Source of the DNA: Prosthecobacter sp.
GTDB taxonomy: Bacteria; Verrucomicrobiota; Verrucomicrobiia; Verrucomicrobiales; Verrucomicrobiaceae
Direction of reading: 5' to 3'
NCBI GenBank assembly: GCA_017853885.1
Contig: JAFMIR010000013.1
Span: forward strand, 1-64,000
Length of the DNA: 64,000 bases
Shown here: positions 34,331 to 37,674 of the stretch, in pieces
How positions within the stretch are numbered: position 1 is the stretch's first letter
How the letters are laid out: each line of letters opens with the position of its first letter
Translations under genes and position numbers: made by a program
The notes under the pieces: model-generated
The model's database searches: none
What the model was told of the DNA's origin: nothing
What the model saw: the letters and a program-made list of their open reading frames with translations, nothing else

Positions 34331-36127
34331 ATGTCCAAAGCCTCCGTTGAAGAAATCAAACTCGCCTCCGCTGGCCTCCGTGGCCAGCTTGCCGAGCTTT
34401 TCGCTGACACCAGCACCCCGAACATTCCGGAGGACAGCAATATCCTCATGAAGCATCACGGGTCCTACCAGCAAGACGACCGCGACTTGCGTGCCCAGCT
34501 TTCCAAAGAAAAGAAGGAAAAGGCATGGAGCTTCATGATCCGCAGCAAGATGCCCGGCGGCCGTATCACCGCCGAACAATGGATGATCCACGACGCCCTT
34601 TGCACCAAAGCCATGGGCAACATGCGCCTCACCAACCGCCAAGGCATTCAGCTCCATGGCGTGCTCAAAGGCGGCGTGAAGGAAGTCATCAGCAACGTTT
34701 GTCACAGCGGCCTTTCCACCATGGGCGCCTGCGGCGACGTCGTGCGCAACACCATGGGCCCCGCCGCGCCGATCAAGGACGCCGTGCATGCTGATACGCA
34801 AAAACTCACCGAAGAGATCAGCCAGCGCTTCCTCTGGCGCAGCTCCGCCTACGCAGACATCTGGCTCGATGGCGAAAAGCTTGAACCCAACTGGATCAAG
34901 GACCCCGAGGTCAATCCCGCCGTGCGCGAGGCCACCAAGGCCACCGAAGGCGATGACCCAATCTACGGCAAAGTCTATCTGCCGCGCAAATTCAAGATCG
35001 GTGTGGCCATCCAGCCACTCAATGACGCGGACATCTACTCGCAAGATGTCGGTCTCGTGCCGCATGTCGTGAATGGCGAGGTCGAAGGCTATACCATCAC
35101 CGTCGGCGGCGGCTTCGGTATGAGCCACGGCCAGCTCAACACGCGCCCTTTCCTCGGCCAGCCTCTACTTTACGCGAAGCGTGCAAATGTCGTCGATGCC
35201 ATCGAAGCCATCGTCACCACCCAGCGCGACCACGGCAACCGCACCGAGCGCAAAAACGCCCGCCTGAAATATACCGTGCAGACCATGGGCCTCGATGGTT
35301 TCCGCGCTGAAGTCGTGCGCCGTTTGCCCGGCATCGAGACCTTCCCGCCAAAGCAGCTGAAATTTAACACCGTCGAAGACAACATGGGCTGGCATGAGCA
35401 GGGCGACGGCAAGCTCTACTGCTGCGTTTACGTCAACATGGGCCGCGTCGTCGATCGCGAAAATGGACCGAAATACCGCTCCTGCTTTGCTGAGATCGCC
35501 ACCACGCTGAAGCTGCCTCTCATCGTCACACCGAATACGAACCTCATCATTGCCGAGGTCGTGCCCGAGCAAAAAGCCTCCGTCGATGCCATCCTCGCCA
35601 AACATGGCGTCGTTCACGCTGATGAGGCTGGCTTCACCCGCGCCCGCAAGGTCGCCCACGCCTGTGTTGCTTTACCAACCTGCGGTTTGAGCCTCAGCGA
35701 GTCCGAACGCGCCCTTCCCGGCATTCTCGACAAGATCGACCCGATCCTGAAGGAGCTGGGCCTAGAAGACGAGCCCATCCTCTTCCGCATGACTGGTTGC
35801 CCCAATGGCTGCGGCCGCCCCTACAACGCCGATTTCGGTTTCGTGGGCCGTGCGCCGAACAAATACGCGATGTTCGTCGGTGGCAGCATCCGCGGCAACG
35901 CGCTCGCCGGCCTCGAATTCAAATCCGTGCTCGGTGACGAGATCCCCGGCAAGGTCCGCACCTTCCTAGAAGCCTTCAAAGCCGAGCGCCAGCCTGGCGA
36001 ACTCTTCGCCGACTGGTTCGCACGCACCCGAACCAAGGGTGAAGCCCCGACGCCTGAGCAATTCCACATTGAACTCGCCGAACGTGCCGCCAAGCTCGCC
36101 GGTGAGAAGGTGGAAGCGGCAGGATAA
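34331..36127 (+). CDS. Assimilatory sulfite reductase hemoprotein (siroheme/4Fe-4S)
   Basis: 598 aa; ACVALPTCGLSLSESERALPG and RMTGCPNGCGRPYNADFGFVGRAPNKYAMFVGG (SiR siroheme/4Fe-4S ligand motifs). Confidence 0.92.
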   Translation: MSKASVEEIKLASAGLRGQLAELFADTSTPNIPEDSNILMKHHGSYQQDDRDLRAQLSKEKKEKAWSFMIRSKMPGGRITAEQWMIHDALCTKAMGNMRLTNRQGIQLHGVLKGGVKEVISNVCHSGLSTMGACGDVVRNTMGPAAPIKDAVHADTQKLTEEISQRFLWRSSAYADIWLDGEKLEPNWIKDPEVNPAVREATKATEGDDPIYGKVYLPRKFKIGVAIQPLNDADIYSQDVGLVPHVVNGEVEGYTITVGGGFGMSHGQLNTRPFLGQPLLYAKRANVVDAIEAIVTTQRDHGNRTERKNARLKYTVQTMGLDGFRAEVVRRLPGIETFPPKQLKFNTVEDNMGWHEQGDGKLYCCVYVNMGRVVDRENGPKYRSCFAEIATTLKLPLIVTPNTNLIIAEVVPEQKASVDAILAKHGVVHADEAGFTRARKVAHACVALPTCGLSLSESERALPGILDKIDPILKELGLEDEPILFRMTGCPNGCGRPYNADFGFVGRAPNKYAMFVGGSIRGNALAGLEFKSVLGDEIPGKVRTFLEAFKAERQPGELFADWFARTRTKGEAPTPEQFHIELAERAAKLAGEKVEAAG

Positions 36128-36142
36128 GGCCTACCTTCCAAA

Positions 36143-36309
36143 TAGACCGTTTCTCAAAAAGAATGTCTGAAATGACCGGCGAGCGCGGCGGCTTCAGTGG
36201 CAAGGAAAGAGCGAGGATGCTATTGGGACAATAGCTGACGAGCGAATGACGCCGCCAATGAGGCTGCCCCGCCGCCGGGAATCTGACAGACATTTTGAGA
36301 ACCGGTCTA
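36143..36309. repeat. ~167-bp full-length imperfect palindrome with TA ends (candidate MITE/REP-like element)
   Basis: TAGACCGTTTCTCAAAA...TGTCTG at the left and CAGACATTTTGAGAACCGGTCTA at the right; interior also pairs (CCGGCG.., AGAGCGAGGATGCTATTG / CAATAGCTGACGAGCGAA) with a GCTATTG-GGA-CAATAGC tip. Confidence 0.8.
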
Positions 36310-36322
36310 GATTCATTCACCC

Positions 36323-36354
36323 AAAACGGGACGAGCCTTCGCTCGTCCCGTTTT
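36323..36354. terminator. Bidirectional rho-independent terminator between convergent genes
   Basis: Perfect hairpin AAAACGGGACGAGC-CTTC-GCTCGTCCCGTTTT. Confidence 0.92.
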
Positions 36355-36366
36355 GTTTGATGAAAC

Positions 36367-37674
36367 TCACTCCGCCTTGAGCAGCTTCTCGTCGATGCGC
36401 GCGACGAGCGTGTCGAGCACCTCGCTATTGCCGAAGCGTTCGATGACGTCGGCGAGGAAGCCTTCGACGATGAGGCGGCGGCTTTCGGTGTCGGGGATGC
36501 CGCGAGCTTTCAGGTAGAAGAGCTCTTCATCGGCGATGGGACCACTGGTGCTGCCATGGCTGCATTTGACCTGATCGGCATTGATTTCGAGACCAGGAAG
36601 GCTGTTGGCCTCGGCTTCATTGCTGTTGAGCAGGTTGCGACACGTTTGATAGGCATCGGTGTAGTGGGCGCCTTCATCGACGATGATGAGGCCACTGAAA
36701 ACGGTGCGCGATTTGCCATAGAGGGCGTTTTTGTAGAGCAGGTCGCTGGTGGCACGCGGAGCTTTGTGACGCTGAAGCGTGCGCTGATCGACGATTTGAT
36801 CACCGATGGGCAAACTGACGCTGAGCATGTCGCTGCGGGCACCCTGGCCGACGAGATCGCTGACGCTCTCGCTGCGGCTGAAGGCGGCACCGAGCTGCAC
36901 CTGGAAGCTTTTCACGCTGGCATCCCGTCCGGCGGTGATGCTGGAAAGATGAAGCGCCTGGGCGTCATCGGCCAGCTCCTGGCAGGCGGCGTAGGTGATC
37001 TGGCTGCCGCTACCGCCGACGAGATCGGCGATGGCGATGCTGAGGCCGCCTTCCCCTTCGAGGCTGCGGTAATGATCGACGACACTGACCTGCGCATGGT
37101 CGCCCGTGACGACGAGCGTGTGCGGGAAGATGGCGGCGTGGTCGCCGACGACCCAGTGGAAGACTTCAATGGGCTTTTCGATGACGACGTTCTTCGGCAC
37201 GATGATGACGGTACCCGCTTTGACATGCGCGAGGTGCAATGCGGCAAATTTATTCGAGCCCAGAGCTTGTTCGCCCTTCATGAAATGCTGCTGGAGGACG
37301 GCTTCATGCGATTTCAGGGCTTCCTCGAAGCTCACGCACACAACGTCGGCGGGAAGACTGTTCGTGTCGGATTCGATGAGCGTGTCATTCACGAAGACAA
37401 ATCGTGCGGCGCGTTCTTTGAGGCCTTCGGTGGCTGCGAGCGCGGCTTTCGACTGCTCGGCGGTCGGTGTTTTAGCCTGAGCGTGGTCGGCGAGCTCGAT
37501 CTTCTTCGCGTTCGAGTAGCGCCAGTGCTCGTCATTGAGGCCGGGAAGCGGCAGGGACTGGAATTCGGTCCAGGCGGCTTCTGAGCGAATGCGGAACCAG
37601 TCAGGCGTGGAGGTGCTACGAGCAGGTGTGGTGGAGAGAAGGCCAGTGGAGGTCTCGGAGGAAGCAGTAGGCAT
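36367..37674 (-). CDS. sufD: Fe-S cluster assembly protein SufD
   Basis: 435 aa; KCSHGSTSGPIADEELFYLKARGIPDTESRRLIVEGFLADVIERF. Confidence 0.95.
   Translation of the reverse strand: MPTASSETSTGLLSTTPARSTSTPDWFRIRSEAAWTEFQSLPLPGLNDEHWRYSNAKKIELADHAQAKTPTAEQSKAALAATEGLKERAARFVFVNDTLIESDTNSLPADVVCVSFEEALKSHEAVLQQHFMKGEQALGSNKFAALHLAHVKAGTVIIVPKNVVIEKPIEVFHWVVGDHAAIFPHTLVVTGDHAQVSVVDHYRSLEGEGGLSIAIADLVGGSGSQITYAACQELADDAQALHLSSITAGRDASVKSFQVQLGAAFSRSESVSDLVGQGARSDMLSVSLPIGDQIVDQRTLQRHKAPRATSDLLYKNALYGKSRTVFSGLIIVDEGAHYTDAYQTCRNLLNSNEAEANSLPGLEINADQVKCSHGSTSGPIADEELFYLKARGIPDTESRRLIVEGFLADVIERFGNSEVLDTLVARIDEKLLKAE

Follow-up and report, generated by a model that had tools for sequence, protein, structure and literature searches.

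The 167-bp palindrome that separates the convergent sir and sufD genes of a Prosthecobacter genome is almost certainly a miniature inverted-repeat transposable element (MITE), a non-autonomous member of the IS630 (Tc1/mariner-type) family. This assignment follows from the existence of multiple copies, a relative in which the same locus is free of the element, empty sites that reveal duplication of the target TA, and autonomous IS630 transposons with the same ends. The initial annotation of the window (the entire 64,000-nucleotide stretch of DNA analysed here, on contig C93 of the 4.27-Mb assembly G000, which is about 94% complete) offered a choice between a Tc1/mariner- or ISNCY-type MITE with a TA duplication and a REP/BIME-like hairpin; the copies, the empty sites and the shared ends bear out the Tc1/mariner-type MITE and speak against the REP/BIME reading, and the match to IS630 leaves no need for an ISNCY partner.

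In the proposed mechanism, a transposase encoded elsewhere would recognise the TAGACCRGTTCTCAAAAAGAATGTC ends, excise the element and reinsert it at a TA dinucleotide, preferably in the context YTAR, with duplication of the TA. Judging from sequence comparison, a transposase of the type described below probably moved the window copy, presumably by a cut-and-paste mechanism like that of ISY100. The window copy itself is a recent entrant into the sir-sufD intergenic region.

The element and its locus

The element starts with TAGACCGTTTCTC at position 36143 and ends with GAGAACCGGTCTA at position 36309, and these coordinates are exact. It is an imperfect palindrome over its full length, with TA at either end, and is predicted to fold into a single near-continuous stem of -83.9 kcal/mol (z = -9.57), with none of 200 dinucleotide shuffles being equally stable; the hairpin GCTATTG-GGA-CAATAGC (36219-36235) forms the tip. 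The near end-to-end pairing and the tip described in the initial annotation, which had proposed an RNA fold as a check, are thus upheld. An Rfam search of the window yielded no family matching the element, and a motif search for a second copy inside the window produced matches at the chance level only. The features of the locus are as follows.

34331..36127, + strand: upstream nitrite/sulfite reductase-like gene, sir (predicted function; name from the initial annotation)
36143..36309, + strand: MITE copy with the presumably duplicated TA at each end (sequence, fold, copy search)
36145-36307, + strand: element proper, GACC...GGTC without the target TA (part of 36143..36309)
36143..36167, + strand: left terminal inverted repeat TAGACCGTTTCTCAAAAAGAATGTC (match to autonomous IS630 ends)
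36168..36284, + strand: inner palindrome including the tip hairpin 36219-36235 (fold, comparison with the transposon)
36285..36309, - strand: right terminal inverted repeat, reading inward TAGACCGGTTCTCAAAATGTCTGTC (match to autonomous ends)
36323..36354, no strand assigned: intrinsic terminator between the convergent genes (perfect, adjoins the element)
36367..37674, - strand: downstream convergent gene, sufD in the initial annotation (predicted function)

The element is located 15 bases past the stop codon of the upstream gene and 13 bases ahead of the terminator, and sufB- and sufC-like ORFs lie beyond the sufD-like gene. In the closest genome (L082, CALMTT010000660.1, also G056/G061), sir, a terminator and sufD follow one another in the same order with no element between them, and the 29 orthologous sir loci compared in other genomes are all free of it. 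The perfect terminator noted beside the element in the initial annotation is real and older than the insertion, given that the element-free relative has a similar one in the same place. Divergence of the short 3' UTR prevents a base-exact definition of the empty site for the window copy.

Copies in the genome and in relatives

The genome contains about 20 copies of the element, 16 of which, including the window copy, are near-complete, and about four are internally deleted or truncated. Identity to the window copy is 73-87% among the remaining near-complete ones. As expected of a MITE, the copies are up to about 167 bp long, have no coding capacity and are dispersed among unrelated flanks. A first survey detected the element in 13 further genomes of the genus. 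A wider one found it in 22 out of 48 congeneric genomes, in three genomes from another genus of the same taxonomic family, each giving at least 12 matches, and as one fragment elsewhere. The initial annotation, which had proposed a BLASTN comparison, knew of one copy; this holds for the window and not for the multicopy family that such a comparison uncovers in the genome and across the genus. The genus of the three additional genomes (G067-G069, genus g15) may be the most heavily colonised of all; the partner transposon of its elements was not found in the search made.

Copies in relatives fall into subfamilies. G015 contains at least 17 copies with 92-98% identity to the window copy and G044 at least six near-complete elements with 90-93%, and more than 20 copies in G022 make up a 169-bp subfamily. 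Within G015, two copies in the same orientation lie just 19 bases apart (L031/L078, C3:42454-42805). The window copy and the G015 subfamily consensus disagree at three of the 167 positions (98% identity), compared with a mean identity of 82% between the older copies in its own genome and their own consensus, which identifies the window copy as a recently arrived member of a young subfamily; this subfamily is also represented in G015, G056, G043 and G044. It arrived either via transfer or via a burst from a source that is now lost.

The autonomous partner

A search for solitary element ends led to the autonomous partner. In G022, this is a 1129-bp transposon (L173 1903-3031) that encodes an intact transposase of 346 residues, with matches to the NCBIfam family transpos_IS630 (NF033545, 1e-59) and the Pfam domain DDE_3 (PF13358, 5e-28). 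Complete transposons of 1129-1130 bp that share the element's ends and encode intact IS630 transposases are present in G022, in G044 (an intact copy, L309, and a split one) and in G076, which belongs to another genus (L310), and decayed copies with these ends are found in G070 and G010. The left end of the window copy is identical to the autonomous ends at 22-24 of 25 positions (G022, G044, G076, G070), compared with 18 for the best of 200 shuffles of the G022 locus, and the right end at 19-22 of 25 positions (four genomes). The inner part of the MITE has no match in the transposon interior, that is, inside the ends. The intact transposase and window-type elements occur together in G044.

The genome that harbours the window copy, in an assembly about 94% complete, has no relative of the partner transposase and no IS630-family match, and no transposase with these ends was found in G015, so that the mobiliser must have been lost, unassembled or foreign. 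The IS630 transposases of G015, G059, G006, G018 and G001 were considered as partners and rejected; no matching end pair surrounds them. G015 also contains a second non-autonomous family, 281 bp long, with the same TAGACCGGTTCTC ends, whose copies (L169 2940-3220, L171 2992-3272, L163 2659-2939) are 99.6-100% identical and occupy different sites. The interior of this family is a row of small separate hairpins, such as GAGGCTGAAAGCCTC and GGGCCTTTCAGGCCC.

Target duplication and empty sites

An exact empty site is available in G022, where the sequence GCGGTCTTC-TA-ATCTCTCGCG corresponds to the filled site ...GGTCTTC-TA[GACC...GGTC]TA-ATCTCTCG. The copies L065 and L075 lie within a short dispersed repeat of this genome and read GGTCTTC-TA[GACC...GGTC]TA-ATCTCT, and the uninterrupted repeats L317, L325, L327 and L329 read CGGTCTTC-TA-ATCTCT. 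These paralogous empty sites show, to the base, that the TA is duplicated on insertion. The MITE has thus inserted more than once into this repeat (CTCTGCGGTCTTCTAATCTCTCGCGGTGTTAAATCAG, at the six loci just named). The copies L068 and L213 are flanked by TG on either side, which fits a dinucleotide that stems from target duplication and lies outside the element proper. Together with the empty sites of other copies, these two suggest that the TA of the window copy was duplicated as well. The empty TA sites that the initial annotation had proposed to look for thus exist in base-exact form in G022, next to the element-free sir-sufD locus of the closest relative. The predicted empty sites of the G015 copies, concatenated and queried across the genus, gave mostly one-sided matches; the L206 site alone, which coincides with the stop codon of a widely conserved gene, yielded useful information. 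The IS630-family element ISY100 inserts in vitro almost exclusively at TA, which is duplicated, and rare non-TA insertions have been reported as well (PMC2170065).

Insertion-site preference

The targets favour YTAR. Their distribution relative to genes, which were called by a simple codon model with the window as its training sequence, was compared with a census of TA sites in the same flanks. Stop codons account for 16 of the 62 non-genic TA insertions as opposed to 4.9% of the non-genic TA sites (6.0% expected with YTAR weighting), an enrichment with P = 4e-8 raw and 6e-7 after weighting by neighbouring bases. Of the 62 insertions, 22 lie no more than 10 bases from the 3' end of a gene (6.8% expected), and just one falls in the 60 bases upstream of a start codon (13% expected). 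In many cases, for example at L206, L276, L008 and L217, the element coincides exactly with a stop codon and terminates the gene with its own TAG.

The simplest explanation of this bias is selection against harmful insertions. Active targeting of stop codons and gene 3' ends by the transposase would account for both enrichments but is unlikely. Since the element reads TAG at either end, a gene whose TAA or TAG stop is hit at its TA still yields the same protein, and selection would retain such a copy; insertions upstream of start codons are depleted, and the enrichment at stop codons is no higher than in the next ten bases. Moreover, the gene calls come from a simple codon model, and the QMITEs of Coxiella display a similar 3'-end pattern (PMC5896051).

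Hairpin, host function and the mobile phase

In the 15 old copies of the window copy's own genome, the change per site is 0.156 at paired and 0.154 at unpaired positions, the number of compensated pairs is 12 vs the random expectation of 10.9 +- 2.9, and the mean folding energy has weakened from -85 to -52 kcal/mol. Equal change at paired and unpaired sites and compensation at the random level indicate that resident copies are not kept as hairpins. By this comparative measure, the hairpin appears to have, on average, no general host function after insertion.

These observations bear directly on the possibility that the palindrome is a conserved functional RNA of the 3' UTR or an extra terminator of sir, a very improbable explanation even though a highly stable hairpin 15 bases beyond a stop codon and the clustering of copies at gene 3' ends would fit it. 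Apart from the neutral decay of the hairpin in the old copies and the lack of an Rfam match, the element is absent from the 29 orthologous sir loci in other genomes, and a terminator already adjoins it. Accordingly, the initial annotation, which considered the element superfluous for termination, was right on this point, the adjoining terminator having a similar counterpart in the element-free relative, and the possibility it had raised of a single-copy, conserved 3' UTR sequence is excluded by the 20 or so copies in the genome and by those same orthologous loci. What is contradicted here is a general host role of the RNA; an individual copy could possibly have been co-opted. There is even less to be said for a REP/BIME-like hairpin mobilised by a RAYT (a tyrosine HUH transposase), an explanation that has next to no probability. 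The element is, indeed, palindromic, extragenic and multicopy, and one verrucomicrobium, O. terrae, is reported to carry GTAG REPs (PMC3733652), but the unit is 167 bp long vs 20-40 bp, the TA target is duplicated, and the ends are common to an element with a DDE transposase.

The IS630-type MITE, then, shows a different pattern among its subfamilies than among its resident copies. Nine subfamily or group consensus sequences, 65-88% identical in the pairs compared, all form hairpins of nearly full length (-85 to -108 kcal/mol), and RNAalifold finds changes on both sides in 11 of 31 consensus pairs. The inner stem contains paired changes such as GGCCCC/GGGGCC, GGCCTC/GAGGCC and GGGATG/CGTCCC. 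Between G018 and either G022 or G001, 10-11 double changes are kept, compared with about 2-3 expected from divergence by a rough estimate. The excess is modest or weak for G015 vs other subfamilies and the consensus pairs are not independent, so that the paired changes should be read cautiously; with this caution, they suggest that the palindrome is maintained, or re-symmetrised, during the mobile phase. That the whole 167-bp palindrome, beyond the 25-bp ends, would be required while the element is mobile is a tentative idea, more doubtful than probable; it would fit the full-length hairpins of active subfamilies that share as little as 65-75% identity, as opposed to the neutral decay of residents.

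Relationship to known elements

Among described elements, RUP of pneumococcus, a MITE proposed to be moved by IS630-Spn1, comes closest (PMC2229807), and the Prosthecobacter element is a new family of that kind. Like the present family, RUP is about 100-170 bp long, mostly intergenic and non-coding, has TA ends with target duplication and shares its ends with an IS630 element (PMC2229807); it differs in sequence and in host phylum. Unlike RUP, the Prosthecobacter element is wholly one palindrome, and its complete partners reside in relatives and not in its own genome. ERIC of enterobacteria (127 bp), compared here by its published description, is likewise a full-length imperfect palindrome with TA ends, target duplication and intergenic location (PMC2229807), whereas the Prosthecobacter MITE has an identified autonomous partner with the same ends. 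The Correia/NEMIS elements of Neisseria, comparable in size, are also TA-flanked MITEs in stem-loop form, with terminal inverted repeats of about 25 bp, and give stable stem-loop transcripts (PMC2229807), but differ in host and ends.

ISY100 and other IS630-Tc1/mariner elements share the TA target and its duplication and, like the partner transposon, have a DDE transposase with helix-turn-helix domains that read the inverted repeats (PMC2170065); unlike ISY100, the window element contains no transposase gene. In REPINs (REP doublets), compensatory changes similarly keep the hairpin in the replicative unit (PMC3116915), but these are tied to RAYT tyrosine transposases, in contrast to the DDE-shared ends and TA duplication of the window family. 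QMITE1 and QMITE2 of Coxiella burnetii resemble it in inserting at the 3' ends of functional genes, with some supplying the stop codon (PMC5896051), and differ in their ends and in the variable target duplications.

Possibly no MITE family has been described in Prosthecobacter before: a limited literature search found no paper joining this genus with miniature inverted-repeat elements, which is weak evidence. What is new is the host group, the identified partner and the decay of resident copies vs the conservation of structure in active lineages. A palindromic MITE that can be tied to a complete partner transposon is rare for ERIC-type bacterial repeats (PMC2229807). Whether palindromic repeats of bacteria are selfish or serve the host is an old question that the G022 or G044 transposase now makes testable, with neutral decay after insertion vs conservation among active subfamilies separating selfish from host function. 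If the entire palindrome were indeed required during mobility, a structural step, such as a cruciform or hairpin or arm-to-arm correction, would be part of the spread of Tc1/mariner-type MITEs, for which, to our knowledge, no such step has been established.
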